From positions 1 through 45,193 of the forward strand of contig CANMIP010000036.1 in assembly GCA_947497945.1 (NCBI GenBank): a stretch of DNA of 45,193 nt, read 5' to 3'. Made by a program: the position numbers and the translations under genes. The notes under the pieces were generated by a model that ran no database searches, was not told where the DNA came from, and saw nothing but the letters and a program-made list of their open reading frames with translations. The stretch is from an uncultured Tropicimonas sp. (GTDB lineage: Bacteria > Pseudomonadota > Alphaproteobacteria > Rhodobacterales > Rhodobacteraceae). Positions 431 to 24,691 of this stretch are shown one piece after another. The stretch's first letter is position 1. Every line of letters starts with the position of its first letter.

Positions 431-1204
431 ATGAAAACCGGACGAAACACCAAGGCCCGCCAGCAGGCGATCCTGCGGCACCTGCACCAGAACGGACGCG
501 CCATGGTCGAGGATCTGGCCGAGTTCTTCGAGACCACGCCGCAGACCATCCGCAAGGATCTCAACATCCTCGCCGATGAAGGCCGCGTGATGCGCTTCCA
601 CGGCGGCGCCTCCCTGCTCGCCGGCAGCGAATACACCGGCTACGAGGTCCGCCAGCAGATCGCCCGCGAGCAAAAGGAAATGATCGGGCGCGCGGCCGCA
701 CAGCTCATTCCGAACAACACCGCGATCATCATCAATGCAGGCACGACCACGGCGGAGCTTGCCCGTCACCTGGGCCAGCATTCCGGGCTGAAAGTCGTGA
801 CGGATTCCGTCTTTATCGCCAATGAAACAAGGGGCTTGCCCGGCGTCGAAGTCATGGTCCCCGGCGGCGTCGTGCGCGGCTCGGACGGCGCGATCCTGGG
901 CGAGTCGGCGGTCGAGTTCATCCGCCAGTTCCGCGCCGACCTCGCCATTGTCGGCTGCGCCGCCATCGCCTCCGACGGTGCACTGCTCGATTTCGACCTG
1001 CGCGAAGCCGCCGTGGCCCGCGCGATCCTGGCCTCGTCGCGCAATGTCATCCTCACCGCCGACTCCTCGAAATTCGAACGCATGGCGCCAGTCTGTATCG
1101 GCCACCTCCACCAGATGCGCACCCTCGTCACCGACAAGGCCTGCCCGGCCGAATTGCGTAACCTTTGTCGCAGCTTGGGGGTCGGACTAACGCTCGCGGA
1201 GTGA
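431..1204 (+). CDS. DeoR/GlpR-family transcriptional regulator
   Basis: A 257-residue protein with the usual DeoR layout. The N-terminal winged helix-turn-helix (about residues 10-60) contains the family signature around TPQTIRKDLNIL. The C-terminal DeoRC ligand domain (about 80-235) has the phosphosugar-binding NAGTTTAEL segment at 102-110. Proteins of this family usually repress sugar operons and respond to a phosphorylated sugar intermediate. The regulator of the E. coli sulfoquinovose genes (YihW/CsqR) belongs to the same family. Here it heads a TRAP plus kinase/aldolase cluster, so a sulfosugar phosphate is a plausible effector. Palindromes at 381-406 and 1258-1278 are candidate operators. 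Length is normal for the family; ATG start. Confidence 0.93.
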   Translation: MKTGRNTKARQQAILRHLHQNGRAMVEDLAEFFETTPQTIRKDLNILADEGRVMRFHGGASLLAGSEYTGYEVRQQIAREQKEMIGRAAAQLIPNNTAIIINAGTTTAELARHLGQHSGLKVVTDSVFIANETRGLPGVEVMVPGGVVRGSDGAILGESAVEFIRQFRADLAIVGCAAIASDGALLDFDLREAAVARAILASSRNVILTADSSKFERMAPVCIGHLHQMRTLVTDKACPAELRNLCRSLGVGLTLAE

Positions 1205-1245
1205 GCCATGCTGTGCCACAAAGGTGCCGTGGGAAATCACACCGC

Positions 1246-1278
1246 TTGACAGAAACGTTCGTTTGGAACAGCATTCGA
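1246..1278 (+). promoter_or_regulatory. Candidate promoter with embedded DeoR operator before the TRAP genes
   Basis: A consensus -35 hexamer TTGACA lies at 1246-1251, and a weak -10 candidate (CAGCAT or AGCATT) follows 17-18 bases later. The spacer and -10 region carry TTCGTTTG-N6-CATTCGA (1258-1278), the same core and spacing as the palindrome upstream of the DeoR gene. A repressor bound here would cover the promoter. The -10 assignment is uncertain. Confidence 0.55.
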
Positions 1279-1349
1279 CAAATTCGAAACTTAAAACGCG
1301 CAAATCGCGCCTCGATTCTGTTTCGGATTTGATGGGGAGGAGATAGCTG

Positions 1350-1934
1350 GTGCTCGCATTGCTGCGTCCGCTGTGCTGGGTCAACACGCGCATCCTGCGT
1401 GTCGGGCGCAGCCTGGGCTGGGTCGCCTTGGCCCTGATGGTGTTTGTCATCCTTCTCCAGGTGTTCTTCCGATACGTGATGAACAACGCGCTGAACTGGC
1501 CCGACGAGGCGGCGCGCTTCCTCATGCTGTGGATGACCGGCCTCGTGGCGCCCTCCGCCTATCGCTGGGGCGGCTTTGTCGCCATCGACATGCTCCCCCA
1601 GGCCCTCCCCCGCACCGCTGGCCTCATACTTTCGCTTCTGATCCTCGTTCTTTCGCTTTTCGTCCTCGTGATCGGCGTCCAGCACGGCTACGAGCACACA
1701 TTCGGCTTCGGCGGAAAGTTCAACTCCTCAAGCCTCCGCATCCCGCTCGAATGGGCCGGGATGGAGACCGTCAAGGTGAAGCTCAAATTCATGTACATGT
1801 CGCTCTTCGTGGGAATGATCCTGCTGATTTCGGTCAATATCGAGCTGATCCTGCGCACCGTGATCCAACTGTTGGACGAAGACGCCGAACTGCCTTCCGA
1901 CGACGCCCCTGATATGCTGCAGAGTGCCGATTGA
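1350..1934 (+). CDS. TRAP transporter small permease (DctQ type)
   Basis: A 194-residue membrane protein of the DctQ family, the four-helix subunit that pairs with the large permease in TRAP carriers. Hydrophobic segments are visible at about residues 20-42, 62-78, 88-108 and 145-165, and FFRYVMNN near residue 38 is typical of DctQ. The start is GTG at 1350, preceded by the strong ribosome binding site GGGGAGGAG. The stop codon overlaps the start of the large permease by one base (TGATG), implying translational coupling. The promoter/operator at 1246-1278 lies directly upstream. It is the first gene of the Q-M-P transporter set that probably imports the sulfosugar handled downstream (inferred from context). 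Confidence 0.92.
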   Translation: MLALLRPLCWVNTRILRVGRSLGWVALALMVFVILLQVFFRYVMNNALNWPDEAARFLMLWMTGLVAPSAYRWGGFVAIDMLPQALPRTAGLILSLLILVLSLFVLVIGVQHGYEHTFGFGGKFNSSSLRIPLEWAGMETVKVKLKFMYMSLFVGMILLISVNIELILRTVIQLLDEDAELPSDDAPDMLQSAD

Positions 1935-3433
1935 TGCTCGCCCTGTTCCTCCCGCTTTTCCTGCTCTTCCTCCTCGTCGGCATGCCGGTGTTTTTCGCGC
2001 TGTTGCTCAGCCCCGGAGCGCTGCTCTGGTTGAACGGCCAGGAGCGCGACCTCGCGCTGCTGTATCGCAATCTTTACAATGGGATGGACAGCTTCCCGCT
2101 GATGGCGCTGCCCTTCTTCGTGCTCGCGGGCGAGCTGATGAACAAGGGCGGGATTACCACCCGCCTTGTCGAGTTCTCCCAGGCGCTGATGGGACACCTG
2201 CGCGGCGGGCTGGCGCATGTGAACATCCTCTCCTCGATCCTCTTTGCCGGCCTCTCGGGCTCTGCCGTTGCCGACACCTCCGCGCTCGGCTCGACGCTGA
2301 TTCCGGCGATGGAAAAGAACGGCTACACCAAGACCTTCGCCGCCGCCGTGACCGCCGCGTCTTCGGTGATCGGTCCGATCATCCCGCCCTCGGGCATCAT
2401 GATCATTTACGCCTATGTCATGGGCGAGAGCGTCGCGGCCCTGTTCCTCGCCGGCATCGTGCCCGGCGTCATGGTCGGCGTCGGCCTGATGCTGGTCGTC
2501 CGCCTGATGGCCGACAAATATGACCTGCCCAAGGCCGAGCGCATCGTCACCAAGGGCCAGACCATCTCACCGCTGGAGGACAAGGTCTCCTTCGTCCTGA
2601 TCCGGCTGAATTTCGCCGGCATCCTCGTCGTCGCCTTCAACCTCATCTCTTCCGTGATCGCGGCCACAACCGGCGCCGCAATCTCTATAAATGGCTGGCT
2701 CGTCTTCCTCGTCTTCCTGCCGATCGCGCATGTAATGCTGCTGCGCCTGCGCCGCACCACCTCGGCCGATTTCCGCATCATCTGCAAGAAGGCCGTCGCG
2801 CCGCTGCAGACCCCGATCATCATCCTTGGCGGCATCCTCGTGGGCGTCTTTACCCCCACCGAAGCCTCCGCCATCGCCGTGGCCTATGCGCTGGTCATCG
2901 CCTTCTTCGTCCTGCATTCGATGAAGCTCTCCGACCTGCCGGCGATCATCACCAAGGCCGCGCTCTCGGCCGCCACGGTGCTGCTGCTGGTCGGCGCAGC
3001 CGTCTCCTTCAAGACGGTCGTCTCGCTGAGCCACGCGCCCGAGACCATGGCACATTTCATTCTCGGCCTCTCCGAGAACCCGCTGGTCCTGCTCTTCCTG
3101 ATCAACATCCTGCTCTTCATCGTAGGGATGTTCCTCGATGCCGGCCCCGCGATCATCATCCTCGGCCCGATCCTCGGCCCGATCTTCGTCGATCTCGGCG
3201 TCCACCCGGTCCATTTCGCCATCATCATGTCGGTGAACCTGACCGTGGGCCTGGCGACGCCGCCAATGGGGCTTGTGCTCTTCGTGGCCTCGGCCGTCTC
3301 GGGGGAGAAGGTGGAAGCCATCTCGAAAGCCATCCTGCCATTCCTGGCCGTCGAAGTGGTGGTGATCTTCCTGATCACATATTTCCCGGCCATCTGCATG
3401 ACGATCCCGCGTCTGACCGGATTCGTGCAATAA
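1934..3433 (+). CDS. TRAP transporter large permease (DctM type)
   Basis: A 499-residue polytopic protein of the DctM family, which carries the substrate/Na+ transport path of TRAP systems. Family segments are visible: an N-terminal FxxLLxGMPVFFAL-like stretch, GxxTTRLVEFSQAL, HLRGGLAHVN and IIPPSGIMIIYAY (about residues 155-168), plus VNLTVGLATPPMG near the C-terminus. It is somewhat longer than a minimal DctM (about 430) because of a polar insertion near residues 195-270. ATG at 1934 is chosen because it overlaps the stop of the small permease; a TTG one codon upstream is less likely. The binding protein follows 34 bases downstream. Confidence 0.94.
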   Translation: MLALFLPLFLLFLLVGMPVFFALLLSPGALLWLNGQERDLALLYRNLYNGMDSFPLMALPFFVLAGELMNKGGITTRLVEFSQALMGHLRGGLAHVNILSSILFAGLSGSAVADTSALGSTLIPAMEKNGYTKTFAAAVTAASSVIGPIIPPSGIMIIYAYVMGESVAALFLAGIVPGVMVGVGLMLVVRLMADKYDLPKAERIVTKGQTISPLEDKVSFVLIRLNFAGILVVAFNLISSVIAATTGAAISINGWLVFLVFLPIAHVMLLRLRRTTSADFRIICKKAVAPLQTPIIILGGILVGVFTPTEASAIAVAYALVIAFFVLHSMKLSDLPAIITKAALSAATVLLLVGAAVSFKTVVSLSHAPETMAHFILGLSENPLVLLFLINILLFIVGMFLDAGPAIIILGPILGPIFVDLGVHPVHFAIIMSVNLTVGLATPPMGLVLFVASAVSGEKVEAISKAILPFLAVEVVVIFLITYFPAICMTIPRLTGFVQ

Positions 3434-3467
3434 CGATTTGAATGCTCTCAAAGGGAGGAAAGAAAGC

Positions 3468-4526
3468 ATGCTCGGAGCAACCATCAAGACCCTGACGGCC
3501 GCCGCCATTCTGGCGGGGTCGACCATCGCGGCATCAGCGGCGGATTACACGCTGCGCGCCACCGCGAATTCGAACGAGAATGACGAGGATTATGACGGGC
3601 TCGTCGTCTTCAAGAACTATGTCGAGGCGGCCTCCAACGGCGCCATCGAAGTTGAACTGTTCATCGGCACCCAGCTTTGCGGCAACGGCGCCGAGTGCCT
3701 TCAGGGTGTGGCTGACGGCTCTGTCGACATCTACATCTCCACCTCGGGCGGCGCCTCCGGCATCTTCCCCTATGTGCAGGTGCTCGACCTGCCCTACCTG
3801 ATGTCCTCGGACCGCATCGCCGAAGCCGTGTTGCAGGGGGATTTCACCCGCACCATGCGCGAGATGGCACTTGAGGACAGCTCCGGCATGATCCGCCTGA
3901 TGACCATCGGCAACACTGGCGGCTGGCGCAACTTCGCCAACACCAAGCGCCGTGTGCAGGGTCCGGCCGACATGGAAGGCCTCAAGATCCGCACCGTCGT
4001 GGCCGACCTGCCGCAGGAACTGGTGAAAGCGCTTGGCGCCTCGCCGACCCCGATCCCGTGGCCCGAGCTGTTCACCTCCTTCCAGACCGGCGTGGTCGAA
4101 GGCTCCAAGAACGGCATCACCGACATCATGGGCATGAAATTCCCCGACGCCGGCCTCCAGTACGTCACGCTTGACGGTCACGCCTACATGGGCGCGCTCT
4201 GGTGGATGAACAACGCCAAGTTCATGGAGATGCCGGACGAGCTGAAGATGGTCGTGAATGACGGCTTCTATGCGCTGCAGCAGGCCACCTTCGCTTCGCC
4301 CAAGCGCAAGTCGATCCAGGCTTACGAAGATTTCGTGGCCGGTGGTGGCGATCTCTACGTGCCGTCGCCCGAAGAAAAAGCCGCGTTCAAGGAAGCCGCA
4401 GCCCCCGTCTATGACTGGTTCAAGGCCAATATCGACGGCGGCGAGAAGATCTTCGACGCGCTGACCGGTGCCGTTGCCGAGGTCGAGGCGGAAATCGCCG
4501 AAGCCAACGCGATGGATCTCAAGTAA
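3468..4526 (+). CDS. TRAP transporter solute-binding protein (DctP type)
   Basis: A 352-residue periplasmic substrate-binding protein. ATG at 3468 is preferred over an upstream TTG because it follows the ribosome binding site AAGGGAGGAA and gives a clean signal peptide (about 23 residues ending in AASA, mature start ADYTLRA). The mature part has DctP features such as the GTQLCGNGAECLQGV segment and the KGLKIR-like MEGLKIRTVVADLP, with an Arg that normally contacts an acidic substrate group. TRAP systems are known for other sulfonates (taurine, isethionate, dihydroxypropanesulfonate). The neighbouring sulfopyruvate decarboxylase and sugar genes make sulfoquinovose or its glyceryl glycoside the likely ligand, which is inferred. 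Confidence 0.93.
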   Translation: MLGATIKTLTAAAILAGSTIAASAADYTLRATANSNENDEDYDGLVVFKNYVEAASNGAIEVELFIGTQLCGNGAECLQGVADGSVDIYISTSGGASGIFPYVQVLDLPYLMSSDRIAEAVLQGDFTRTMREMALEDSSGMIRLMTIGNTGGWRNFANTKRRVQGPADMEGLKIRTVVADLPQELVKALGASPTPIPWPELFTSFQTGVVEGSKNGITDIMGMKFPDAGLQYVTLDGHAYMGALWWMNNAKFMEMPDELKMVVNDGFYALQQATFASPKRKSIQAYEDFVAGGGDLYVPSPEEKAAFKEAAAPVYDWFKANIDGGEKIFDALTGAVAEVEAEIAEANAMDLK

Positions 4527-4535
4527 TCCAGACCC

Positions 4536-4561
4536 GTCCGGAGCCTTTCGGGGCTCCGGAC
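4536..4561 (+). terminator. Hairpin after the TRAP binding-protein gene
   Basis: Perfect 10-bp stem GTCCGGAGCC / GGCTCCGGAC with a 6-base loop, 9 bases after the stop codon. No T-run follows, so it may act as an mRNA-stabilising stem or a partial terminator. It lies between two convergent genes and could serve both strands. Confidence 0.55.
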
Positions 4562-4573
4562 ACCGCAGGCCGC

Positions 4574-5047
4574 CTACCGGAACGGGTAGAGCCACACACG
4601 ATAGTCATCAATCAAGATATGGGCATGTTCGATTTGGTCGGGCGTCATCTTCTTTACGACTTCCTCCTGGGAAATCGCGGCATCGGGGTCCCCTCCGATG
4701 GCGGAGAGGGCGTACCACATATAGGCGCGCACGAGATCCGGCGCGGGCATGCCGCGGCCGACCTCGTAATACCAGCCGATGCCGGATTGTGCCCCGGCGT
4801 GTCCCTTGAGCGAAGAGCGCAGATACCACTCAAACGCCCGCACATCGTCCCGCTCGACGCCCAGCCCACTGGCATACATGACGCCGATCAACTCCTCGGC
4901 CTCGGCATTGCCCGCCCGCGCCGCCGGGAGCAGCTCCTGCATCGCCTCCGGGTATTTCTGCGCATCCATCAGGTCGCGCGCGGTCTCGATCTCAGCCCAG
5001 GCCGGGCTCGCAAGACAGAGGGCAAGGGCAAGACAAAGGCGTTTCAT
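4574..5047 (-). CDS. Secreted Sel1-repeat protein
   Basis: A 157-residue protein with an N-terminal signal peptide (MKRLCLALALCLASPAWA, cleavage after about residue 18). Two Sel1-like helical repeats follow: one from about GNAEAEELIGVMYASGLGV, the other from about HAGAQSGIGWYYEVGRG. A short C-terminal helix follows. Sel1 repeats mediate protein-protein contacts, often in the periplasm. It is the only minus-strand gene inside the plus-strand sulfosugar cluster. Its first codon (5045-5047) and its ribosome binding site GAGGAGG (5053-5059) lie within the apparent signal-peptide coding region of the divergent cytochrome gene, so the two 5' ends overlap. Role unknown; a partner role for the cytochrome is only a guess. 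Confidence 0.85.
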   Translation of the reverse strand: MKRLCLALALCLASPAWAEIETARDLMDAQKYPEAMQELLPAARAGNAEAEELIGVMYASGLGVERDDVRAFEWYLRSSLKGHAGAQSGIGWYYEVGRGMPAPDLVRAYMWYALSAIGGDPDAAISQEEVVKKMTPDQIEHAHILIDDYRVWLYPFR

Positions 5048-5050
5048 GGC

Positions 5051-6355
5051 ATCCTCCTCGGGCTGGCGCTCGGCGCCGTCAGCGCCCAAGCAAGCGAGCT
5101 TCCGCGCCAATTGCAAGCCTCGGATTTCCCGGACTTCCCGCCCGAACAGGTGAAGCTCGGCCAGCTCCTCTTCTTCGACCCGATCCTGTCGGGCAATCGC
5201 AACATCTCCTGCGCCACCTGCCACAGCCCGGACCATGCTTCCGCGGATGGCCTGCCCCTCGGCATCGGCGAGGGCGGGCATGGTGTCGGCCCCAAGCGGA
5301 CCGCAGGGGTTGGCGAGGACCGCATCGAGAAGCGCATCCCGCGCAACGCGCCCGCGCTCTGGAATCTCGGCGCGAAGGACATCCACACGATGTTCCATGA
5401 CGGCCGCCTGCATGTCTCCGATCTCTACGGCAACGGCTTCAACTCCCCGGCGCAGGAGTGGCTGCCCGACGGGCTCGACTCCGTCCTTGCCGCGCAGGCG
5501 CTTTTCCCGATGACCTCCGAATTCGAGATGGCCGGGAACCCGAAGGAAAACCAGGTCGCCGGCGCTGTCTATGACCGCATCGACAATGTCTGGCCGATCC
5601 TCGCCAAGCGCGTCCGCGTGATCCCGGAATATGCCGAGATGTTCGCGGCGGCCTATCCGGAGATCGAAAGCCCGCTCGACATCAATATCGTCCATATCGC
5701 CAATGCCATCGGGGCATTCGAGGCCACCGAGTTCCAGAGCTTCGACAGCCCCTTTGACGCTTTCCTTGCCGGCGATGAGGACGCGCTGTCCGCCGAGCAG
5801 AAGGCCGGCATGGCGCTCTTCTACGGTGAGGCCGGCTGTGCGGTCTGCCATTCCGGCCCGCTCTTCACGGATCAGGATTTCCACGCCATCACGCTCCCGC
5901 ATTTCGGCCCGGGCCGCACTCGACAATGGGACCCGATCGTGCGCGATGTTGGCCATATGGGCGTTTCCGACCGGTTGGAAGACGCCTATCGCTTCCGCAC
6001 GCCCTCGCTGAGAAACGTCGCGTTGACAGCACCTTACGGCCATAACGGCGCCTATGCGACGCTGGAGGGAATTCTCCACCACCATCTCGACCCGGCGGCA
6101 GGCTTCGCCAACTGGTCCCCCGATGACGTCCAACTTCCCGAGGTTCCCTGGCTTCAAAAGGCCGACTTCATCCCGCTTCTGGACCGGCACGAGCGCGCTC
6201 GGCAGGCCGCAGCTGGCGATCTGGAACCGGTGTCGCTCAGCGACGGCGAAGTTGACCAGATCATCGCCTTCCTTCAGGCGCTGACCGGCACGGAATCGAT
6301 CAAGGGCCGGCTTGGCCGCCCGGAAAGCGTCCCCAGCGGATTGGAGGTGGATTGA
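5051..6355 (+). CDS. Di-heme cytochrome c peroxidase / MauG-like protein (5' end unresolved)
   Basis: About 430 residues with two c-type heme sites, CATCH (5210-5224) and CAVCH (5837-5851), plus HGxx and heme-pocket segments typical of bacterial di-heme peroxidases and MauG. It should be periplasmic: a hydrophobic stretch ILLGLALGAVSAQA followed by SELPRQL looks like the end of a signal peptide. No ATG, GTG or TTG stands in frame just before it. The open frame continues upstream antisense to the Sel1 gene with no convincing start until ATG 4619. The ATG at 5046 is off frame, and one extra base after it would give M-A-ILLGLALG, so a one-base deletion or sequencing error is possible. The coordinate 5051 marks the first codon of the recognisable protein, not a proven start. 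The stop overlaps the kinase start, so it is co-transcribed with the sugar genes. Its substrate is unknown. Confidence 0.82.
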   Translation: MLLGLALGAVSAQASELPRQLQASDFPDFPPEQVKLGQLLFFDPILSGNRNISCATCHSPDHASADGLPLGIGEGGHGVGPKRTAGVGEDRIEKRIPRNAPALWNLGAKDIHTMFHDGRLHVSDLYGNGFNSPAQEWLPDGLDSVLAAQALFPMTSEFEMAGNPKENQVAGAVYDRIDNVWPILAKRVRVIPEYAEMFAAAYPEIESPLDINIVHIANAIGAFEATEFQSFDSPFDAFLAGDEDALSAEQKAGMALFYGEAGCAVCHSGPLFTDQDFHAITLPHFGPGRTRQWDPIVRDVGHMGVSDRLEDAYRFRTPSLRNVALTAPYGHNGAYATLEGILHHHLDPAAGFANWSPDDVQLPEVPWLQKADFIPLLDRHERARQAAAGDLEPVSLSDGEVDQIIAFLQALTGTESIKGRLGRPESVPSGLEVD

Positions 6356-7239
6356 TGTCCGACATCCTCGTTCTCGGCATGGCAGCGGTGGATTTCGTCC
6401 TCTCGATGGACAGCTTTCCGACCGAGCCGACCAAGTACCGCGCCAAGGCCGCCGAAATCGTCGGCGGCGGCCCGGCCGCCAATGCCGCCGTCGCCATCGC
6501 GCGGCTCGGGGGCAGCCCCAGCTTCATCGGTCGGCTCGGAGACGACCCGCTAGCCGATCTCGTGCTGAACGATCTCGAAGAGGCGGGCGTCGCCACGACC
6601 CATGTCCACCGCGCCCCCGGCGGCCGCTCTTCCTTCTCCTCGGTCTATATCGACGCGACGGGCGAGCGGCAGATCATGAATTTCCGCGGCGAGGGACTGA
6701 CGGAGGAGACCGGCTGGATGTCCGCCCTCCCGCCCGCGCGCGCCGTGCTCGTGGACACCCGCTGGCCGGACGGGGCAGCTGCCGCGCTGGACCTGGCGCG
6801 ACGCTGGGACGTGCCCGGCATTGTCGATGGCGAGGCCCCAATCGACCCGCGCCTGCTGGAAAAAGCCAGCCACCTTGCCCTTTCGGCGCAGGGGCTGGCC
6901 TCGCTGGAGCCGGGCGACGACCTCGCCGATGCCCTCGCCCGCCTCAAAAGCCGCATCCCCGGCTGGGCCTGCGTCACCGAAGGCGCGAATGGCGTCTGGT
7001 ACACGGGCGAAACAGGGATCGCGCACATCCCGGCCTTCCGCGTCGACGCAGTCGACACGCTCGCGGCGGGCGATGTCTGGCATGGCGGCTTCGCGCTCGC
7101 CCTCTCGGAAGGCCAGCCCGAGGCGAACGCCATCCGCTTCGCCAATGCCACCGCCGCTTTGAAATGCATGAACTTCGGAGGCCGCACGGGCACCCCTGCC
7201 CGCGATGCCGTCCAGACCTTCCTCAAGGAGAACACATGA
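6355..7239 (+). CDS. PfkB-family sugar kinase, probable sulfofructose kinase
   Basis: A 294-residue ribokinase/PfkB-family kinase. The N-terminal motif near residues 36-50 (VGGGPAANAAVAIARLGG) and the C-terminal signature DTLAAGDVWHGGFA (234-247) are clear. Asp240 is the expected catalytic base; the DTLAAGD form replaces the commoner DTxGAGD, and a similar form is recalled in YihV-type kinases. The start ATG overlaps the cytochrome stop (TGATG) with ribosome binding site GGAGGTGG, and the stop overlaps the aldolase start (ATGA). Given the aldolase and the sulfopyruvate genes downstream, the likely reaction is 6-deoxy-6-sulfofructose to its 1-phosphate. Family membership is certain; the substrate is inferred from context. 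Confidence 0.9.
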   Translation: MSDILVLGMAAVDFVLSMDSFPTEPTKYRAKAAEIVGGGPAANAAVAIARLGGSPSFIGRLGDDPLADLVLNDLEEAGVATTHVHRAPGGRSSFSSVYIDATGERQIMNFRGEGLTEETGWMSALPPARAVLVDTRWPDGAAAALDLARRWDVPGIVDGEAPIDPRLLEKASHLALSAQGLASLEPGDDLADALARLKSRIPGWACVTEGANGVWYTGETGIAHIPAFRVDAVDTLAAGDVWHGGFALALSEGQPEANAIRFANATAALKCMNFGGRTGTPARDAVQTFLKENT

Positions 7240-8264: not shown

Positions 8265-8405
8265 AACATGCCCAGCAGCCCAACCAAAACGCTTTCCCCT
8301 CACCCGATTGGTAGGGTGAGCAGATCGGGCCACGTCCTCCCTCGGGCGGGCGTTCGGAACGCTGGGATACGGCGCTTTATGGTGCAAACCACTGAAACGC
8401 TGGTT

Positions 8406-8475
8406 CGTTTTGCAACGTCGCAAAACGCCCTCCCCGGGGGGAGGGAGGGCGTGGCCCGGGCTGGTCGCCCGGGCC
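8406..8475 (+). other. Three tandem perfect hairpins in the gap inside the sugar operon
   Basis: The 278 bases between the aldolase and isomerase genes contain no supportable gene. They carry CGTTTTGC/GCAAAACG (8406-8413 with 8420-8427), CGCCCTCCC/GGGAGGGCG (8426-8434 with 8443-8451) and GGCCCGGGC/GCCCGGGCC (8453-8461 with 8467-8475), with loops of 6, 8 and 5 bases. There is no T-run. Processing, mRNA stabilisation or partial attenuation between the two halves of the operon are the likely options. The segment 8372-8391 just upstream also matches part of the palindromic repeat at 21505-21671. Confidence 0.6.
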
Positions 8476-8542
8476 GGCAAGCGATAATCCCGCGCTTGCA
8501 ACACACAGCCCCTCTCGCTCCTCCCCAACTGGAGACCCAAGC

Positions 8543-9925
8543 ATGAAAATCGGCATCCTCCCCCTTGGCCGACCCACCTTCGACGTGCCCTTCGCAGAAG
8601 AGAAACTCGCCGCGATGCTGGCCGCGCTCGACTCAACCGGCCATGAACTCATCGGCCCGCGCAGCCTCCTCTTCGACGAGGAGGCCACCCGCGCCGCGAT
8701 GGCAGAGCTCACGGCCGGAGGGATCAACCATCTCCTCGTCCTTCAGGTCACCTTCACCGACGCCTCCATGGCGGTCGCCGCGGGCAATGCCTTTGACCAG
8801 CCGCTGTCGATCTGGGCCGTGCCCGAGCCGCGCCTGGGCGGACGCCTCCGGCTCAACGCCTTCTGCGGGTTGAACCTCGCCTCTCACGCGCTCGGCCTCA
8901 ACCAGCGCAAGTTCTCCTGGCTCTATGCTGACCCGGAAGGCGATATCGCTGAAGATATCGGTGACCTTCTCGCCGGAAACCGCCAGGCCGGCCGGCTGGA
9001 AGCCGAGCCCGTCAAGAAGCGCAACGCCGCGGGCGCCCGCGTGGCCACCGCGCTGAAAGGTCAGAAGATCGGCCGCATCGGCGAGCATCCGGTGGGCTTC
9101 GACACCTGCGCCTATTCGGCTGAGAAGATCGAGGCGATGGCCGGGGTCGGCGTCGATGTACTGGCGCTGGACGACCTCTTCGACGCCGCGAAAGCCGTCC
9201 CAGCGGAAGCCGCCGCGAAGGTCCGCGAGGGTGCCGAGCAGGATGTCTCCGGGCTGGACGCGGTCAACCAGGAGGAGCTGGATCGCTCGCTGCGCCTCAA
9301 GGCCGGGCTCGACAGCCTGCGCGAAAGGGGGGGCTACAACGCCTTCGCCATCCGCTGCTGGCCCGAGACCTTCACCCAATATGGCGGCGCCGTCTGCGGC
9401 CCGGCGGCGATGCTGGGCGAGGGCAAGGTGCCCTGCGCCTGCGAGGCCGATGTCTATGGCGCGCTGACCCAGCTCATCCTGCTCGAAGCCGCGCAAGCGC
9501 CGGTCTTCCTCACCGATCTCGTCGACATCGACGCCGAGGACAACACGGGCGTTGTCTGGCATTGCGGCCAGGCCCCGATCTCGATGCGTGACGACGCCGT
9601 CGAGCCGACCGCCACCGTGCACACCAATCGCAAACAGCCGCTGCTCTACGAGTTCCCGCTGAAGCCCGGCCCGGTCACCTTCCTGCGCATCTCGCAGAGC
9701 TTCGGGGAGCCAAAAATGGTGCTCTCCTTTGGTGAAATGCTGCGTCGACCGATGGCCTTTACCGGCACTTCGGGTGTTGTCCGCTTCGAATGGCCCGCCG
9801 GCGACATGCTGGCCGACATCATCGACAGCGGCCTCGAACATCACATGGCCCTCGCCTATGGCGACCACCGCGCGACACTCCGCGCGACCGCCGCCGAGCT
9901 GGGCCTGCCACTTCTGGAGTTGTAA
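8543..9925 (+). CDS. L-fucose/L-arabinose isomerase-family protein, probable sulfoquinovose isomerase
   Basis: A 460-residue protein resembling the fucose isomerase family. The N-terminal Rossmann-like domain begins MKIGILPLGRPTFD. A central region has AIRCWPE (269-275) and VPCACEADVYGALTQ (297-310). The C-terminal part includes GVVWHCGQAP (336-345). Glu275, Glu301/Asp303 and His340 are candidate metal ligands by comparison with the Glu-Asp-His set of FucI. In this cluster the missing step is aldose to ketose, sulfoquinovose to sulfofructose, and this is the only isomerase present. It is not of the YihS fold used in the classical sulfo-EMP pathway. L-fucose as substrate is unlikely because no fuculokinase or class II fuculose aldolase is present. 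ATG start is preceded by GGAGA. Confidence 0.85.
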   Translation: MKIGILPLGRPTFDVPFAEEKLAAMLAALDSTGHELIGPRSLLFDEEATRAAMAELTAGGINHLLVLQVTFTDASMAVAAGNAFDQPLSIWAVPEPRLGGRLRLNAFCGLNLASHALGLNQRKFSWLYADPEGDIAEDIGDLLAGNRQAGRLEAEPVKKRNAAGARVATALKGQKIGRIGEHPVGFDTCAYSAEKIEAMAGVGVDVLALDDLFDAAKAVPAEAAAKVREGAEQDVSGLDAVNQEELDRSLRLKAGLDSLRERGGYNAFAIRCWPETFTQYGGAVCGPAAMLGEGKVPCACEADVYGALTQLILLEAAQAPVFLTDLVDIDAEDNTGVVWHCGQAPISMRDDAVEPTATVHTNRKQPLLYEFPLKPGPVTFLRISQSFGEPKMVLSFGEMLRRPMAFTGTSGVVRFEWPAGDMLADIIDSGLEHHMALAYGDHRATLRATAAELGLPLLEL

Positions 9926-9928
9926 CGA

Positions 9929-11020
9929 ATGACACTGAGATACGGGCTCATCGGATCGGGCATGATGGGCCAGGAGCATATCCGGAACATCCACCTGTTG
10001 GGCGGCTGCGAGGTCACGGCCATCGCCGACCCGGACGAGGGCATGCGCAGCCTGTCGGTCGAGACGGCCGGCAATGGCGCCAGGGGTTTCACCAATCACA
10101 AGGATCTGCTTTCGGCCGATATCTGCGACGTGTTGATGATCATCTCGCCCAATGACACGCATCACCAGATCATGCTGGACATCATGGAGAGCGGCAAACC
10201 GATCCTCTGCGAGAAGCCGCTCTGCACCACGTCGGATCACTGCCGCGACCTCGTCGCCCGCGCCGAGGGGCGCGACGCGCCGATCTGGGTGGCGATGGAA
10301 TATCGCTACATGCCGCCCATGCAGCGCCTGCTCGACGAGATGGCGCAGGGCCGCATCGGCACACCGCGCATGATGTCCATCCGCGAGCACCGCTTCCCCT
10401 TCCTGCCAAAGGTCGGGGATTGGAACCGCTTCAACGAGCGCACCGGCGGCACGCTCACCGAGAAATGCTGCCATTTCTGGGATCTCATGCGCTTCACCCT
10501 GCAAAGCGACCCGGTCCGCGTCTATGCCTCCGGCAATATGGACGTGAACCACGTCAACGAGACCTATGGCGGCCGCAAGCCGGACATCATCGACAACGCC
10601 TATGTCACTATCGATTTTGCCAACGGCACCCGTGGCATGCTGGACCTGTGCATGTTCTCGGAAGGCGCCTGGTGGCAGGAGAAGATCTGCGTGACCGGCG
10701 ACACGGCCCGGATCGAGGCGAAGGTCCCCGGCCCCTCGCGCTTCTCCCCCGATGGCAAGGAGCGCGACGCGCAGGTCGTGATGTCGATCCGCGAGACCAA
10801 GGAGACCCATGTCGAGGTCGTGGAAGTCCCCAATGAAGTGCTCGAAGCCGGCGACCATCACGGCTCGACCTATTTCCAGCACCAGAAGTTCCGCGACCTC
10901 GTGCTCTCCGGCAAGGGAGAGCCGGAGGTCACGCTGCGCGATGGGCTCTGGTCCGTCATCGTCGGCGAGGCGGGCGAAGAATCGGCCCGAACGGGCCAGG
11001 CAATCGAGGTATCCCTATGA
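9929..11020 (+). CDS. Gfo/Idh/MocA-family NAD-dependent protein, candidate GH188-like sulfoquinovosidase
   Basis: A 363-residue protein with an N-terminal NAD-binding motif GSGMMG (9-14), the family EKP triad (residues 95-97, in CEKPL) and a C-terminal dimerisation/catalytic domain. The GGTLTEKCCHFWD block (173-185) corresponds to the usual GGxxxDxxxHxxD, with His182 and Asp185 kept. Members are often sugar dehydrogenases. A branch with the same fold, glycoside hydrolase family GH188, cleaves sulfoquinovosides by an NAD-dependent redox mechanism. Since no GH31 sulfoquinovosidase is present here, this gene is the natural candidate for releasing SQ from its glycerol glycoside. A plain SQ dehydrogenase is the alternative. 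It starts 4 bases after the isomerase stop and overlaps the epimerase gene by ATGA. Confidence 0.85.
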   Translation: MTLRYGLIGSGMMGQEHIRNIHLLGGCEVTAIADPDEGMRSLSVETAGNGARGFTNHKDLLSADICDVLMIISPNDTHHQIMLDIMESGKPILCEKPLCTTSDHCRDLVARAEGRDAPIWVAMEYRYMPPMQRLLDEMAQGRIGTPRMMSIREHRFPFLPKVGDWNRFNERTGGTLTEKCCHFWDLMRFTLQSDPVRVYASGNMDVNHVNETYGGRKPDIIDNAYVTIDFANGTRGMLDLCMFSEGAWWQEKICVTGDTARIEAKVPGPSRFSPDGKERDAQVVMSIRETKETHVEVVEVPNEVLEAGDHHGSTYFQHQKFRDLVLSGKGEPEVTLRDGLWSVIVGEAGEESARTGQAIEVSL

Positions 11021-12024
11021 GCAGCGAAATCTTCGGCCTGATGCCGGATGGAACAGAGGTCAAACGCTACACGATCAGGGGCGGCGGGCTCACGGCGCAT
11101 TTCCTCTCCTATGGCGCGATCCTGCAGGATCTGCGGCTGGAGGGGCATGACGCCCCGCTCGTGCTCGGGCTCACCACGCTCGAAGACTATTTCGAGCATT
11201 CCAAGAGCTTCGGCATCACCGCCGGCCGCTATGCCAACCGCATCCGCGACGGCCATGTCGAGATCGACGGGACGAGCTACCAGCTCGACACCAATTTCAT
11301 CGGCAAGCACCTGCTGCATGGCGGCGCTGTCGGGCTTGGCAAACGGGTCTGGGAGTTGGCCGATCTCGGCGCCGATTTCATCGTGCTGAAGATCCGCGCC
11401 GCAGATGGCGAGATGGGCTTTCCCGGCAATCTCGACATCACCCAGCGTTTCACCCTGCGCGAGGGCGGTGTGCTCGATATCGAGATGGAGGCGGTGACGG
11501 ACGCTCCCACGCTCTGCAACCTCGCCCATCACAGCTATTTCAACCTCGGCGGCGAGACCATCGCGGACCACCTGCTGCAGATCGAGGCGGAGAAATACCT
11601 GCCCGTGGATGACGAGTTGATCCCCAATGGCCAGCAGGTCAACGTGGCCTTCACCCGCTTCGATTTCCGGACCCCGACAGCGGTCGGGCCGCGCAGCGCC
11701 GAGGGGCTGATTGACCACAATTTCTGCCTGTCTCCTGAGCGAGTGGCCCTCCGGCGCGTCGCCACCCTCGCCTGCCCGTCCTCCGGTGTCTCGATGGATG
11801 TGATGACCACCGAGCCGGGCTTGCAAATCTTCGACGGCTCTCTTTTGAATGTCGCCGTGCCGGGCCTCGACGGGCGCAAGATGGGTCCGGGCGCTGGCAT
11901 CGCCATGGAGCCCCAGATCTGGCCCGACAGCCCGCATAACCCGGATTTTGCCCAAGCGGTGCTCCGCCCCGGCGAGACTTACAGACAGCAGACGCAATAT
12001 GTCTTCGCAAAGGACGTAAAATGA
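11017..12024 (+). CDS. Aldose 1-epimerase (mutarotase), probable sulfoquinovose mutarotase
   Basis: A 335-residue GalM-family protein. Family marks include GITAGRYANRI near residue 67, HLLHGG near 92 (the conserved HGG), NLAHHSYFNLGG near 168-179 with the catalytic His, and a C-terminal VLRPGETYRQQTQY block with the catalytic Glu. It interconverts alpha and beta anomers of a hexose. A retaining NAD-dependent glycosidase releases one anomer, and the isomerase may need another, so a mutarotase fits between the two. SQ-specific mutarotases are known in sulfoglycolytic clusters. Start and stop both form ATGA overlaps with neighbours, showing tight co-translation. The substrate is inferred from context. 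Confidence 0.92.
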   Translation: MSSEIFGLMPDGTEVKRYTIRGGGLTAHFLSYGAILQDLRLEGHDAPLVLGLTTLEDYFEHSKSFGITAGRYANRIRDGHVEIDGTSYQLDTNFIGKHLLHGGAVGLGKRVWELADLGADFIVLKIRAADGEMGFPGNLDITQRFTLREGGVLDIEMEAVTDAPTLCNLAHHSYFNLGGETIADHLLQIEAEKYLPVDDELIPNGQQVNVAFTRFDFRTPTAVGPRSAEGLIDHNFCLSPERVALRRVATLACPSSGVSMDVMTTEPGLQIFDGSLLNVAVPGLDGRKMGPGAGIAMEPQIWPDSPHNPDFAQAVLRPGETYRQQTQYVFAKDVK

Positions 12025-13475
12025 CCGATTTCACCACCTACATGATGCAGTCCAACCTGATCGGCGGCGACTGGATCGGTGCCGACAGCGCCAAGACCAT
12101 TGATGTCACCAACCCGGCGACCGGCGAGGTGATCGGCACCGTTCCCAATTGCGGGACCGACGAGACCAACCGCGCCATCGCCGCCGCCTCGGAGGCCTTC
12201 AAGAGCTTCTCGAAGACGGACCTGCTTTTCCGCGTCAAGCTGCTGCAGGACCTGCATGACGCGCTGATGGACAACCAGAAGAGCCTCGCGCTGCTGCTGA
12301 CCACCGAACAGGGCAAGCCGCTCTTCGAAGCCATGGGCGAGGTCGCCATCTCGGCGGCTTACGTGCGCTGGTATGCCGAGGAAATCCGTCGTGCCAAGGG
12401 CGAGATCGTGCCCGCCCCGATGGGCGGCCGGCAGCTTCTCGTCACCCGCCACCCGGTCGGCGTGGTCGGCGCGATCACGCCCTGGAACTTCCCCTCCTCG
12501 ATGCTCGCCCGCAAGCTCGGCCCGGCGCTTGCCGCCGGCTGCACGGTCGTCGCCAAGCCCGCAACAGCCACGCCTTACTCGGGTCTCGCCTGGGGCAAGC
12601 TCTGCGAGGAGGTTGGCTATCCGAAGGGCGTGGTGAACATCCTGACCGGCTCTGCCCGCGAGATCGGCGGCGCGATCATGGCGAGCCCGGAGGTCCGCAA
12701 GGTTACCTTCACCGGCTCCACCGAGATCGGCAAGACGCTGATCCGCCAGTCGGCGGACACGGTGAAGAAGGTCTCGATGGAGCTTGGCGGCAACGCCCCC
12801 TTCATCGTCTTCGACGACGCGGATGTCGATGCGGCCATCGAAGGCGCGATGATCGCCAAGTTCCGCAATATGGGCCAGACCTGCGTCTGCACCAACCGGT
12901 TCTACGTCCAGTCCGGCATCCATGACGCCTTCGTTGCCAAGCTCAGGGAGGCCGTCGCCGCGCTGAAGGTCGGCAATGGCGCCGAGGAGGGCGTGATGCA
13001 GGGGCCGATGATCGACATGGCCGCTGTGGAGAAGGTCGAGGAGTTCATCTCGGATGCGACCGAAAAGGGCGCCGAGATCGTCGAGGGCGGCAAGCGTCAC
13101 GGCAATGGCGGCACCTATTTCGAGCCGACCGTCGTCACCGGCGCCACGGCGGATATGCAATTCGCCACGGAAGAGATCTTCGGCCCGCTGGCTGCCGTCT
13201 TCAAGTTCGAAGAGGAAGCGGAGGCCATCGAAGCCGCCAACGCCACAGATTTCGGCCTCGCCGCATATGCCTATACGCGCGATGTGGGCCGGGTCTTCCG
13301 CCTCAACGACGCGCTGGAATATGGCCTGATCGGCATCAATGCTGGGCTCATCACCACGGTCGAGGCGCCCTTCGGCGGCATGAAGGAAAGCGGCATGGGC
13401 AAGGAAGGCGGCAGCCAGGGCCTCGATGACTATCTCGAAACCAAATATGTCTGCGTCGCGGGGCTCGGGTCATGA
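12021..13475 (+). CDS. NAD(P)-dependent aldehyde dehydrogenase, probable sulfolactaldehyde dehydrogenase
   Basis: A 484-residue enzyme of the succinate-semialdehyde dehydrogenase (GabD) branch of the ALDH superfamily. Key residues are present: Asn156 in TPWNFP, Lys179 in VAKPA, the general base Glu254 in SMELGGNAP, and the nucleophile Cys288 in GQTCVCTNR. The double-Cys form GQTCVC is typical of GabD and of the sulfolactaldehyde dehydrogenases related to it (SlaB). Next to an aldolase that should make 3-sulfolactaldehyde and an SlcC-like dehydrogenase, oxidation to 3-sulfolactate is the likely reaction. It overlaps the previous and next genes by ATGA. The enzyme class is certain; the substrate is inferred. 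Confidence 0.92.
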   Translation: MTDFTTYMMQSNLIGGDWIGADSAKTIDVTNPATGEVIGTVPNCGTDETNRAIAAASEAFKSFSKTDLLFRVKLLQDLHDALMDNQKSLALLLTTEQGKPLFEAMGEVAISAAYVRWYAEEIRRAKGEIVPAPMGGRQLLVTRHPVGVVGAITPWNFPSSMLARKLGPALAAGCTVVAKPATATPYSGLAWGKLCEEVGYPKGVVNILTGSAREIGGAIMASPEVRKVTFTGSTEIGKTLIRQSADTVKKVSMELGGNAPFIVFDDADVDAAIEGAMIAKFRNMGQTCVCTNRFYVQSGIHDAFVAKLREAVAALKVGNGAEEGVMQGPMIDMAAVEKVEEFISDATEKGAEIVEGGKRHGNGGTYFEPTVVTGATADMQFATEEIFGPLAAVFKFEEEAEAIEAANATDFGLAAYAYTRDVGRVFRLNDALEYGLIGINAGLITTVEAPFGGMKESGMGKEGGSQGLDDYLETKYVCVAGLGS

Positions 13476-14398
13476 CAATCCTCATCACCGAATTCATGGA
13501 CGAAGCCGCCGTCGAGGACATGAAGGCGAAAGTCGAAACCCAATACCTGCCGGATCTCGCGGACCGGCAGGGCGACATTCCCGGCATGATGGCCGGCGTT
13601 CAGGCGCTGATCGTGCGCAACCGGACGCAGGTCACGCCGGAACTGCTCGCAGCCGCGCCCGATCTCAAGGTGGTCGGGCGGCTCGGTGTCGGCCTCGACA
13701 ATATCAACCTGCCCGCCTGCGCGGAGAAAGGCGTCGAGGTCATCCCGGCCACCGGCGCCAACACGATCTCGGTGGCCGAATATGTCGTCACCAACGCGCT
13801 GATCCTGATGCGTAACGCCTACCAGGCCAAGCATTCCATGCTGAAAGGCGGCTGGCCGCGCATGGCCTGTTCGGGGCGTGAAGTGGGCGGCAAGACGCTC
13901 GGGCTGATCGGCTTTGGCGGCATCGCGCGGGAAACCGCGCGGCTGGCGAAAGGGCTGGGCATGTCGGTCTGCGCGACGGACCCGCTTCTGCCTGCCGATG
14001 ACCCCGCCTGGGAGGGCGTGGAGCGGCTTGAGCTGGATGCGCTTTTGGCGAAATCGGATGTGGTCAGCCTGCACGTGCCGCTGCTCGACGCGACGCGCCA
14101 CATGATCAATGCCGGGACTCTGGCGCAGATGAAACCCTCCGCCGTGCTGGTCAATGCAGCACGCGGCGGCGTGGTCGAGGAGGACGCGCTCGTCGCGGCA
14201 ATGAAGGCGGGTCAGCTCGCCGGGGCCGCGCTCGACTGCTTCGAGACCGAACCGCTCACGGAGGCGGCGGGCGAAAAGTTCCGTGGCTGTGAGAACCTGA
14301 TCCTGACGCCGCATATCGCCGGCGTCACGGAGGAATCGAATACCCGTGTCAGCACGATGATCGCAAATCTCGTGCTGGACCGGCTCGGAGAAACCTGA
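13472..14398 (+). CDS. slcC: D-isomer-specific 2-hydroxyacid dehydrogenase, probable (S)-sulfolactate dehydrogenase
   Basis: A 308-residue protein of the SerA/2-hydroxyacid dehydrogenase family. The NAD-binding motif GLIGFGGIAR is at 144-153, the catalytic Arg231 in VNAARGG, a Glu near 258-260 in FETEPL, and His281 in TPHIAG. SerA's regulatory ACT domain is absent, as in the sulfolactate dehydrogenase SlcC. It would oxidise (S)-3-sulfolactate to 3-sulfopyruvate, the substrate of the decarboxylase encoded directly downstream. The start overlaps the aldehyde dehydrogenase stop (ATGA). 3-Phosphoglycerate dehydrogenase is the alternative by homology, but the short length and the comDE genes favour sulfolactate. 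Confidence 0.85.
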   Translation: MTILITEFMDEAAVEDMKAKVETQYLPDLADRQGDIPGMMAGVQALIVRNRTQVTPELLAAAPDLKVVGRLGVGLDNINLPACAEKGVEVIPATGANTISVAEYVVTNALILMRNAYQAKHSMLKGGWPRMACSGREVGGKTLGLIGFGGIARETARLAKGLGMSVCATDPLLPADDPAWEGVERLELDALLAKSDVVSLHVPLLDATRHMINAGTLAQMKPSAVLVNAARGGVVEEDALVAAMKAGQLAGAALDCFETEPLTEAAGEKFRGCENLILTPHIAGVTEESNTRVSTMIANLVLDRLGET

Positions 14399-14413
14399 GG
14401 AGGAGGAGGCCCC

Positions 14414-14920
14414 ATGGCCAAGGATATCGACAGGCGGATCATCCAGGATCTGCTCGACAACGGGGTGGATTTCGTCACCTCCGTGCCCTGCAAGCAGCTT
14501 GCCGGCGTGATCGAGGTGCTCGACGAGACCGAGGCGCTCAAGCATGTGCCTTGCAACAAGGAAGACGAAGGCATGGGCCTCTGCGCCGGCGCCTTCATGG
14601 GCGGGATGAAACCGGCCATCATCATGCAGAACACGGCACTCGGCGTGACGCTGAACTCGCTGGCCACCCTGATCCAGTTCTACCAGATCCCGCTGCCGAT
14701 GCTGATCTCCTATCGCGGCGAAGTCGGCGAGCCGGTGGCCTGCCAGGTCGAAATGGCGCTGCACACCAAGGCGCTGCTCGCGCAGCTCAACATCCCGACC
14801 TATCACCTCCATCATGCGTCGCAGGTGGAAGAACTGCCGGGCATCCTGAAGCACTGCCAGATGTGCTCCAAGCCCGTTGCCATCCTGACCGATGCCAGCT
14901 TCTGGGGGAGCGCGACATGA
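14414..14920 (+). CDS. comD: Sulfopyruvate decarboxylase, alpha subunit
   Basis: A 168-residue protein matching the ComD family, the pyrimidine-binding half of a split thiamine-diphosphate decarboxylase. Recognisable parts are TSVPCKQLAG (22-31), the Glu-rich VPCNKEDEGMGLCAGA (45-60) and PAIIMQNTALGVTLNSLATL (67-86). A Glu in the KEDEG segment should activate the cofactor. With ComE it converts 3-sulfopyruvate to sulfoacetaldehyde and CO2. It follows a very strong ribosome binding site, GAGGAGGAGG, and overlaps comE by ATGA. Phosphonopyruvate decarboxylase is homologous but is normally one chain of about 380 residues, so the split form favours sulfopyruvate. Confidence 0.93.
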   Translation: MAKDIDRRIIQDLLDNGVDFVTSVPCKQLAGVIEVLDETEALKHVPCNKEDEGMGLCAGAFMGGMKPAIIMQNTALGVTLNSLATLIQFYQIPLPMLISYRGEVGEPVACQVEMALHTKALLAQLNIPTYHLHHASQVEELPGILKHCQMCSKPVAILTDASFWGSAT

Positions 14921-15471
14921 TCCGTTACGAACTGCTTGAACTGCTGAAAGAGACCCTCACCAACGAGCTTGTCGTCTGCAATATCGGCTCGCCGAGCCAG
15001 GAACTGCACGCCATCGACGACCAACCGTCGAATTTCTACATGCTCGGGACGATGGGCCTTTGCTCCTCCATCGGGCTCGGGCTGGCCATGGCGACCGACA
15101 AGAAGGTCGTGGCCATCGACGGTGACGGCTCGGTGCTGACCAATATGGGCACGCTGGCGACGATCGGGAACAACCACCAGAAGAACTTCATCCTGGTGAT
15201 CGTCGATAACGGCTCCTACGGCTCCACCGGCGACCAGCCGACCTATACTGGCGGGCGCACCTCGCTGGCCAAGGTCGCGGAGGCCTGTGGCTGCGACACG
15301 GTCGTGGAATGCTCGGCCGCCGACACGCCCGATGCGGTCAAGGCCGCGCTTGCCGGCGACGAGATGACGGTGATCATCTCCAAATGCGACAGCGGCAACC
15401 GCAAATGCCCGGTGATCACGATGAACCCGATCATGATCCGCGAGCGTTTCATGGCCGAGGTCGCGCGCTGA
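14917..15471 (+). CDS. comE: Sulfopyruvate decarboxylase, beta subunit
   Basis: A 184-residue protein with the thiamine-diphosphate/Mg-binding motif DGDGS (68-72) running to VDN (96-98), and the ComE-typical NGSYGSTGDQPT block just after it. It is the diphosphate-binding half that pairs with ComD. It is the last gene of the plus-strand chain; a strong hairpin follows within 15 bases. No sulfoacetaldehyde acetyltransferase (Xsc) or phosphotransacetylase follows, so the product's next step must be encoded elsewhere. The start ATG overlaps the comD stop and is preceded by GGGGGAG. Confidence 0.93.
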   Translation: MIRYELLELLKETLTNELVVCNIGSPSQELHAIDDQPSNFYMLGTMGLCSSIGLGLAMATDKKVVAIDGDGSVLTNMGTLATIGNNHQKNFILVIVDNGSYGSTGDQPTYTGGRTSLAKVAEACGCDTVVECSAADTPDAVKAALAGDEMTVIISKCDSGNRKCPVITMNPIMIRERFMAEVAR

Positions 15472-20262: not shown

Positions 20263-20285
20263 TTCTGGTCCTCTGGTTCAGGGCC

Positions 20286-21476: not shown

Positions 21477-21504
21477 TCCAGGCCCCCATCCGATCGAAGT
21501 GCCC

Positions 21505-21671: not shown

Positions 21672-21707
21672 CTCGTTGCGCGAATTGATGGCAGGCCAAG
21701 GTCATGC

Positions 21708-23560: not shown

Positions 23561-23589
23561 GGATCCAGCCCCTCCCCCGGGCCTTGAGC

Positions 23590-23613: not shown

Positions 23614-23623
23614 GAAAGCGGGA

Positions 23624-24658: not shown

Positions 24659-24691
24659 GATGTCCTCCCAGAAATGGCATTCGTTTCGTTC

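Follow-up and report, generated by a model that had tools for sequence, protein, structure and literature searches.

A putative sulfoquinovose operon in Tropicimonas with a hybrid sulfo-EMP upper half and a desulfonating lower half

Could a single cell that breaks down sulfoquinovose (SQ) by sulfoglycolysis also release its sulfur? SQ, a sulfo-sugar of plants and algae, ranks with the most abundant organosulfur compounds. Sulfolytic routes, through an SQ monooxygenase (sulfo-SMO) or an SQ dioxygenase (sulfo-SDO), free the sulfur in one cell, whereas sulfoglycolytic routes usually release sulfolactate, 2,3-dihydroxypropane-1-sulfonate (DHPS) or C2-sulfonates, which other microbes then take over. 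The question is raised by a gene chain at positions 431-15471 of a 45,193-nucleotide stretch of DNA (the window) from an uncultured Tropicimonas sp. (assembly GCA_947497945.1, a 5.79-Mb draft genome; contig CANMIP010000036.1, here C36). We consider it likely that this chain is an SQ utilisation operon in which a hybrid Embden-Meyerhof-Parnas type (sulfo-EMP) upper half is joined to a desulfonating lower half, a reading for which we infer the substrates, the direction of flux and the joint running of the two halves. Papers are cited by PMC number.

The gene chain and its proposed pathway

The genes follow one another, as read directly from the DNA, in the order DeoR, dctQ-dctM-dctP, Sel1, mauG, kinase, aldolase, isomerase, sqgA, mutarotase, aldehyde dehydrogenase (ALDH), slcC, comD and comE. 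In the proposed pathway, a tripartite ATP-independent periplasmic (TRAP) importer would take up SQ or SQ-glycerol and SqgA would free SQ from its glycoside. The mutarotase and an enzyme of fucose isomerase fold would then convert SQ to sulfofructose, to be phosphorylated by the PfkB kinase and cleaved by the LacD/YihT-type aldolase to dihydroxyacetone phosphate and (S)-sulfolactaldehyde. The ALDH would oxidise this aldehyde to (S)-sulfolactate, SlcC, taken as S-acting, would yield sulfopyruvate, ComDE would produce sulfoacetaldehyde, and Xsc, encoded elsewhere in the genome, would release sulfite and acetyl phosphate. The features are as follows.

431-1204, plus strand: DeoR-family regulator (PF00455, 161.6 bits; PF08220, 56.8 bits)
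1350-1934, plus strand: TRAP small permease DctQ (PF04290, 70.8 bits, cut-off 28.3)
1934-3433, plus strand: TRAP large permease DctM (PF06808, 372 bits; TIGR00786 over cut-off)
3468-4526, plus strand: TRAP solute-binding protein DctP, putative receptor for SQ or its glycoside (PF03480, 175.8 bits)
4574-5047, minus strand: Sel1-repeat protein, divergent from mauG (PF08238, 50.8 bits on 4574-5035; start ATG seen)
about 5036-6355, plus strand: di-heme protein like MauG and cytochrome c peroxidase (CCP), two CxxCH motifs, start uncertain (PF03150, 127.7 bits; structure 2c1u, 125 bits)
6355-7239, plus strand: PfkB sugar kinase, putative sulfofructose kinase (PF00294; YihV 7ag6 the best solved relative)
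7236-8264, plus strand: LacD/YihT-superfamily aldolase, putative sulfofructose-1-phosphate aldolase (PRK12858, 326 bits, cut-off 184)
8268-8520, no strand assigned: dispersed repeat in the aldolase-isomerase gap (7 further partial copies in the same genome)
8543-9925, plus strand: aldose-ketose isomerase of fucose/arabinose isomerase fold, putative SQ isomerase
9929-11020, plus strand: SqgA, predicted NAD+-dependent sulfoquinovosidase of family GH188 (8qc3, 379 bits)
11017-12024, plus strand: aldose 1-epimerase (mutarotase) (PF01263, 247.7 bits)
12021-13475, plus strand: ALDH of succinate-semialdehyde dehydrogenase (SSADH)/GabD type, putative (S)-sulfolactaldehyde dehydrogenase (TIGR01780, 634.8 bits)
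13472-14398, plus strand: SlcC-like dehydrogenase, putative (S)-sulfolactate dehydrogenase (PF02826)
14414-14920, plus strand: ComD, sulfopyruvate decarboxylase alpha (TIGR03845, 153.7 bits, cut-off 147.95)
14917-15471, plus strand: ComE, sulfopyruvate decarboxylase beta (TIGR03846, 228.7-230.3 bits, cut-off 221.5)

A preliminary description of this DNA had named the kinase, the LacD-type aldolase, the isomerase, a Gfo/Idh/MocA protein (here SqgA), the mutarotase, the ALDH, the SlcC-like protein, ComDE and the TRAP importer, and all were recovered by family or curated-model matches. It described the genes as mostly joined by ATGA overlaps; such overlaps occur at five of the 12 junctions examined (kinase/aldolase, sqgA/mutarotase, mutarotase/ALDH, ALDH/slcC and comD/comE), two others are TGATG junctions (dctQ/dctM and mauG/kinase), and five are gaps, of 3, 15, 34 and 278 bp and, with an assumed mauG start, about 509 bp, the mauG frame having no ATG, GTG or TTG within 5000-5110. 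The 15-bp spacing lies between slcC and comD, and the 278-bp spacing between aldolase and isomerase. The latter is unusual among relatives with both genes, in which the distance between the tblastn matches is 6-55 bp (40 of 44) or 646-667 bp (four of 44, including L051, whose isomerase match is split in two pieces), and the repeat at 8268-8520 has its seven partial copies elsewhere in the genome at 78-90% identity. The insert showed no sign of an operon break, with one terminator-like site against 0.7 expected. Chance is an implausible origin for the chain, since other genomes show the same order of genes. CsqR belongs to the same DeoR family as the regulator at the head of the chain.

Among solved structures the kinase is closest to YihV (7ag6, E = 3.3e-57, 117 of 287 residues identical); it belongs to PF00294, the family of YihV-like PfkB proteins, and not to PF00365, and it keeps K27, N109 and R138, the sulfonate-contacting residues. 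SqgA aligns to 8qc3 with 379 bits and 179 of 359 aligned residues identical. The active-site residues reported for ArSqgA are K107, Y136, E163, R166, L170, K172, E189, H193 and H321 (PMC10755693); eight of these nine map to our protein and all eight are identical, and E163 is unmapped at the common offset, where the solved chain has a valine and the next residue is a glutamate in both proteins. What had been put forward as a possible NAD-dependent sulfoquinovosidase is thus a clear SqgA/GH188 homologue, predicted to act as an NAD+-dependent sulfoquinovosidase.

The aldolase falls into PF01791 (91.1 bits) and not PF01116, and keeps the lysine of the LacD motif. Its matches to solved structures comprise 8tnf, a DUF2090 protein (316 bits), LacD (120-138 bits) and the sulfofructosephosphate aldolases (57-65 bits), so that the putative enzyme is closer to LacD than to YihT. 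The isomerase had been described as non-YihS, which agrees with its match to PF02952: a YihS-type enzyme was rejected, as no scanned protein of the cluster matched PF07221, the YihS family. Against the PDB, phmmer returned no match to the isomerase at 0.01 and a profile search one weak match, an arabinose isomerase (E = 0.19); the predicted structure has the arabinose/fucose isomerase fold. E301, D325, H433 and H434 are invariant across 25 sequences, with the E-D spacing of FucI. The nearest named relatives, from Aliiruegeria and Tropicimonas, are 76-83% identical. The isomerase of the window would be a distant relative of SftI/SqvD.

In the lower half, both ComD and ComE exceed their curated cut-offs (TIGR03845 and TIGR03846), and a phosphonopyruvate decarboxylase identity was rejected with TIGR03297 far below its cut-off. 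SlcC belongs to the phosphoglycerate-dehydrogenase-like family PF02826, and its homologues are co-located with ComC- and SuyB-like genes (themselves named from family matches below cut-off) in nine of the 53 loci surveyed below. GabD-type enzymes are reported to yield (S)-sulfolactate (PMC11382572), and SlcC is catalogued as S-specific, oxidising (S)-sulfolactate (PMC11131964); both enzymes being of the S form, no racemase would be needed.

The source genome carries one xsc gene on another contig, C23, outside the window (922.8 bits against a cut-off of 676.4), and the next open reading frame of at least 150 aa encodes a putative sulfate exporter of the YeiH family (140.4 bits, below the cut-off of 232.6); the pair lies at 9428-12725 of locus L086. 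Two Pta/Ptb-family places were also found, one of them partial. SuyAB and SQ monooxygenase were rejected as exits in this genome: its best match to SuyB, at 32%, is no orthologue, and nothing matched SQ monooxygenase at E<=1e-80. Of the three desulfonating exits tested, this leaves ComDE-Xsc alone, CuyA-type exits not having been searched for. The claim that a single cell could carry SQ down to sulfoacetaldehyde, with a sulfo-EMP upper half and a SlcC-ComDE lower half in one chain, is supported by the SqgA residues, the ComD and ComE models, the closest structures and the linkage seen in other genomes, and with Xsc and the Pta/Ptb-family genes the predicted route may be extended by one step.

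Recurrence and the two desulfonating endings

The observed linkage was examined in 53 isomerase-bearing loci of GTDB genomes, gene presence being called by set bit-score thresholds; contig ends truncate some of the loci, which may inflate the number of absences. The kinase was present in 46 loci, the aldolase in 44, SqgA in 39, SlcC in 30, the ALDH in 18, and ComE and SuyB in 11 each, and no locus held ComE and SuyB together. The full cluster also occurs in Aliiruegeria lutimaris DSM 25294, Tropicimonas sediminicola DSM 29339 and Shimia haliotis DSM 28453 (loci L003, L004 and L008). Ten of the ComE loci belong to Tropicimonas, Aliiruegeria, Shimia or Actibacterium and one to a Hyphomicrobiales metagenome-assembled genome; the SuyB loci, by their record labels, comprise four gammaproteobacterial loci, two of Marinicaulis and one each of Hoeflea, Nitratireductor, SAR324, Proteobacteria and Deltaproteobacteria. 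These observations suggest that the predicted hybrid sulfo-EMP upper half pairs with one of two desulfonating endings, ComDE or SuyB, in a split that is largely phylogenetic.

A GH31-like glycosidase was found in eight of the 53 loci, never together with SqgA, and six loci had neither. In L048 (3726-13443) and in L033, L035, L039, L040 and L051, which are gammaproteobacterial, of Marinicaulis or related, the isomerase, kinase and aldolase stand with a GH31-like gene in place of sqgA. These clusters also carry SlcC-, ComC- and SuyB-like genes, another putative one-cluster desulfonation route.

At whole-genome scale, 390 genomes of the order were searched for the isomerase (E<=1e-30), for ComE and Xsc (over curated cut-offs) and for a SuyB orthologue (over 600 bits). 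The isomerase occurred in 24 genomes, ComE in 140 and Xsc in 259; among the 24 isomerase genomes, 23 had Xsc, 15 ComE, six a SuyB orthologue, and one both ComE and SuyB. Isomerase genomes differed from the others in Fisher tests for Xsc (0.0007) and ComE (0.008), values uncorrected for kinship.

A ComE tree was built from 12 cluster rows, including that of the window, and 50 others (30 best-scoring and 20 hand-picked, mostly low-scoring). Eleven of the cluster rows fell into a 13-row clade (support 99/98), with the Hyphomicrobiales row just outside; in a smaller tree with only the 30 best-scoring outsiders, 11 of the 12 had formed an exclusive clade (98/98), which two of the 20 added rows later entered. 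These two non-cluster rows, L163 and L164, come from Shimia-genus genomes without the isomerase, and in both (2866-6550 and 2923-6607, respectively) comDE is preceded by homologues of the mutarotase (55-56% identical) and the ALDH (72%); in L163 the set is flanked by genes for an ATP-binding cassette (ABC) transporter and a solute-binding protein. Both resemble what would remain of this operon without its upper half.

The TRAP-Sel1-MauG module

Between importer and kinase the preliminary description was incomplete: it had missed the Sel1 gene (4574-5047, minus strand), whose product has a signal-peptide-like start as read by eye, and the MauG-like gene (about 5036-6355). The Sel1 gene adjoins mauG in all 23 high-scoring loci examined (L094-L116, of 30) and is present in all 27 mauG-bearing loci among the 53 isomerase loci. 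A MauG-like homologue at E<=1e-60 occurs in 246 of the 390 genomes of the order, so MauG was rejected as operon-specific; the weaker matches, at around 50% identity, probably represent other paralogues.

This order-wide spread of MauG, together with its context, led to a link with sulfo-SMO. Seven 20-kb stretches were hand-picked from genomes without the isomerase; TRAP genes adjoin MauG in six of them, and five contain a SqgA homologue that is 48-52% identical to ours. One of these clusters, L160, holds an alkanesulfonate-monooxygenase-type enzyme (below cut-off), a flavin reductase and a SqgA homologue. A close homologue of this monooxygenase is present in all seven genomes; in six it lies no more than about 9 kb from MauG, and in the seventh (G151) about 440 kb away. 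By comparison, it was found in one of the 24 isomerase genomes (G052), where it is close to a MauG gene and the isomerase is on a different contig. DctP is 80-89% identical to the DctP beside sulfo-SMO type genes (six loci), compared with only 48-52% for SqgA. The arrangement of a Sel1 gene divergent from a MauG/CCP-like gene and beside TRAP genes was seen in the window (4574-6355) and in L155-L157 and L159-L161, among clusters of sulfo-EMP as well as sulfo-SMO type.

Because sulfo-SMO and the pathway of the window have SQ or its glycoside in common, SQ or its glycoside is the best inference for the substrate of the TRAP importer. A wider proposal is offered tentatively, as one that we think could be true but would not expect to be: one SQ entry module (TRAP-Sel1-MauG with SqgA) would feed either sulfo-SMO or hybrid sulfo-EMP, the latter often equipped for desulfonation in its own right, by SlcC-ComDE with Xsc or by SlcC-ComC-SuyAB, which would let a single cell mineralise SQ, and the MauG-like enzyme and Sel1 protein would form an unrecognised, required periplasmic part of SQ uptake or processing.

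Downstream of the chain, the window holds a PaaX-like regulator (17292-18098) and other catabolic genes (18232-27670), including an ALDH-MaoC fusion, a P450, a 3-hydroxyacyl-CoA dehydrogenase and an enoyl-CoA hydratase. A second TRAP system lies on the minus strand (DctM, 21708-23249; DctP, 23624-24730), and a TAXI-type TRAP pair, with an NMT1_3 receptor and a fused DctM-DUF3394 permease, at 39362-43042. A single open frame at 32155-33129 combines an N-terminal DUF1330 with, at its C-terminal end, a weak match to radical SAM (28.0 bits, cut-off 29.5).

Rival readings and relation to known systems

Several observations weigh against an SQ operon whose two halves run together. The isomerase scores 259.7 bits across the whole SftI equivalog model NF048012, whose cut-off is 700; the ALDH stays just below the SSADH cut-off (634.8 against 646.35 bits); and the best curated match of SlcC is a phosphoglycerate dehydrogenase, below cut-off, its name coming mainly from context. 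With 259 of the 390 genomes of the order carrying Xsc, its presence in the source genome is weak evidence by itself. No more than 11 of the 53 loci link ComDE, and ComE adjoins the isomerase in just seven of the 24 isomerase genomes; of these 24, four lack both ComE and a SuyB orthologue. In G096, slcC-comDE stand together, but some 176 kb separate them from the isomerase; in L005 the upper half lacks a lower half within 10 kb; and the Jannaschia loci L032 and L034 have SlcC and the ALDH without ComDE, which speaks against a universal coupling.

A rival reading, in which adjoining halves serve separately, sulfolactate or DHPS being excreted and SlcC-ComDE used for external sulfolactate, would suit the occurrence of ComE in 125 of the 366 sampled genomes without the isomerase, the several loci with an upper half but no ComDE, and the mutarotase-ALDH-comDE sets retained in Shimia-genus L163 and L164. 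We nevertheless think separate service unlikely, given the ATGA overlaps that run from sqgA through the mutarotase and ALDH to slcC with comD 15 bp on, the clade of their own formed by most cluster ComE, and the reported stereospecificity of SlcC, which fits the sulfoglycolytic product (PMC11382572, PMC11131964). It is likewise improbable that the sulfo-sugar is one other than SQ, for example sulfofucose passing through sulfotagatose, a kinase and a LacD-type aldolase to the same (S)-sulfolactaldehyde and lower half. LacD-family aldolases are tagatose-type, the isomerase has the fucose/arabinose isomerase fold, and PMC12421959 weighed an EMP-like route for sulfofucose with proteins of PF00294 and PF01791, though these were not induced there; against this stand a SqgA with SQ-contacting residues in the operon, the alternation of SqgA (39 loci) and GH31 glycosidase (8) with none having both and six neither, and the TRAP-Sel1-MauG module adjoining sulfo-SMO type genes as well. 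An operon for an ordinary hexose or hexuronate, handling a non-sulfonated sugar acid, would suit the breadth of the individual families and the presence of a TRAP importer, TRAP importers mostly carrying carboxylates; it is scarcely credible beside SqgA, ComD, ComE and the SuyB/ComC-like linkage in relatives, all of which point to sulfonates.

We thus retain the SQ operon with a desulfonating lower half. With sulfoglycolysis and desulfonation genes in one chain, a fitting stereochemistry and named strains of marine-type genera that carry it, single-cell SQ mineralisation by sulfoglycolysis becomes directly testable. The same upper half elsewhere bears the other known lyase ending (SuyB), and the isomerase with ComDE or SuyB may serve as a genomic marker for bacteria that may or may not leak C3-sulfonates. 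The TRAP importer and the di-heme protein become candidate SQ genes.

Compared with sulfo-EMP as found in E. coli (yih) and in Arthrobacter with SqgA, whose end products are given as DHPS or sulfolactate (review PMC12890257), the window shares the PfkB kinase closest to YihV, a PF01791 aldolase, an ALDH to sulfolactate and a mutarotase, together with SqgA as in Arthrobacter. It differs in an isomerase outside the YihS family, a longer LacD-like aldolase, the TRAP importer and the product-processing genes in the chain. Hybrid clusters in which an SqvD/SftI-type isomerase (here below cut-off) replaces YihS are in print, including SqvD with a YihR-type mutarotase (PMC9594981); unlike sulfo-EMP2 with SqvD/SqiK/SqiA, the window has a PfkB kinase and not PF00365, and a PF01791 aldolase and not PF01116. 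The NAD+-dependent sulfoquinovosidase has also been published, and a Jannaschia SqgA cluster is named in a figure legend of the same paper, so that some of the upper half may have been drawn before (PMC10755693).

Paracoccus wurundjeri, for which sulfofucose cleavage was shown and a SlcC/ComC-SuyAB ending proposed, is alike in having one organism and cluster for sugar cleavage and desulfonation, with SlcC; its tandem pathway differs in the Entner-Doudoroff route for sulfofucose, the ComC-SuyAB ending and the ABC importer. According to the same source, it is unusual for sulfoglycolytic and biomineralising pathways to coexist in one bacterium; for SQ it cites a single, partial case, in Klebsiella (PMC12421959). 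Alphaproteobacteria are known to finish DHPS breakdown by ComDE-Xsc, an ending shared with the Roseobacter route HpsNOP-SlcD-ComDE-Xsc, whose entry is DHPS to R-sulfolactate and SlcD, in contrast to SQ, S-sulfolactate and SlcC as proposed here (PMC11382572); ComE of most SQ clusters forms a clade apart from other ComE in the tree. Among the papers listed in literature searches, none had sulfoquinovose, SlcC and ComDE together, those for sulfoquinovose with cytochrome c peroxidase were unrelated, and PMC10507020 matched sulfoquinovose with a TRAP transporter. Roseobacter sulfo-SMO shares SqgA and the TRAP-Sel1-MauG module and differs in that its monooxygenase cuts the C-S bond of SQ, so that complete SQ use in one cell is already known there. 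Each kind of enzyme in the chain is known and the assembly of the upper and lower halves is, as far as these searches show, new, in keeping with the distinct variant that the preliminary description had supposed.

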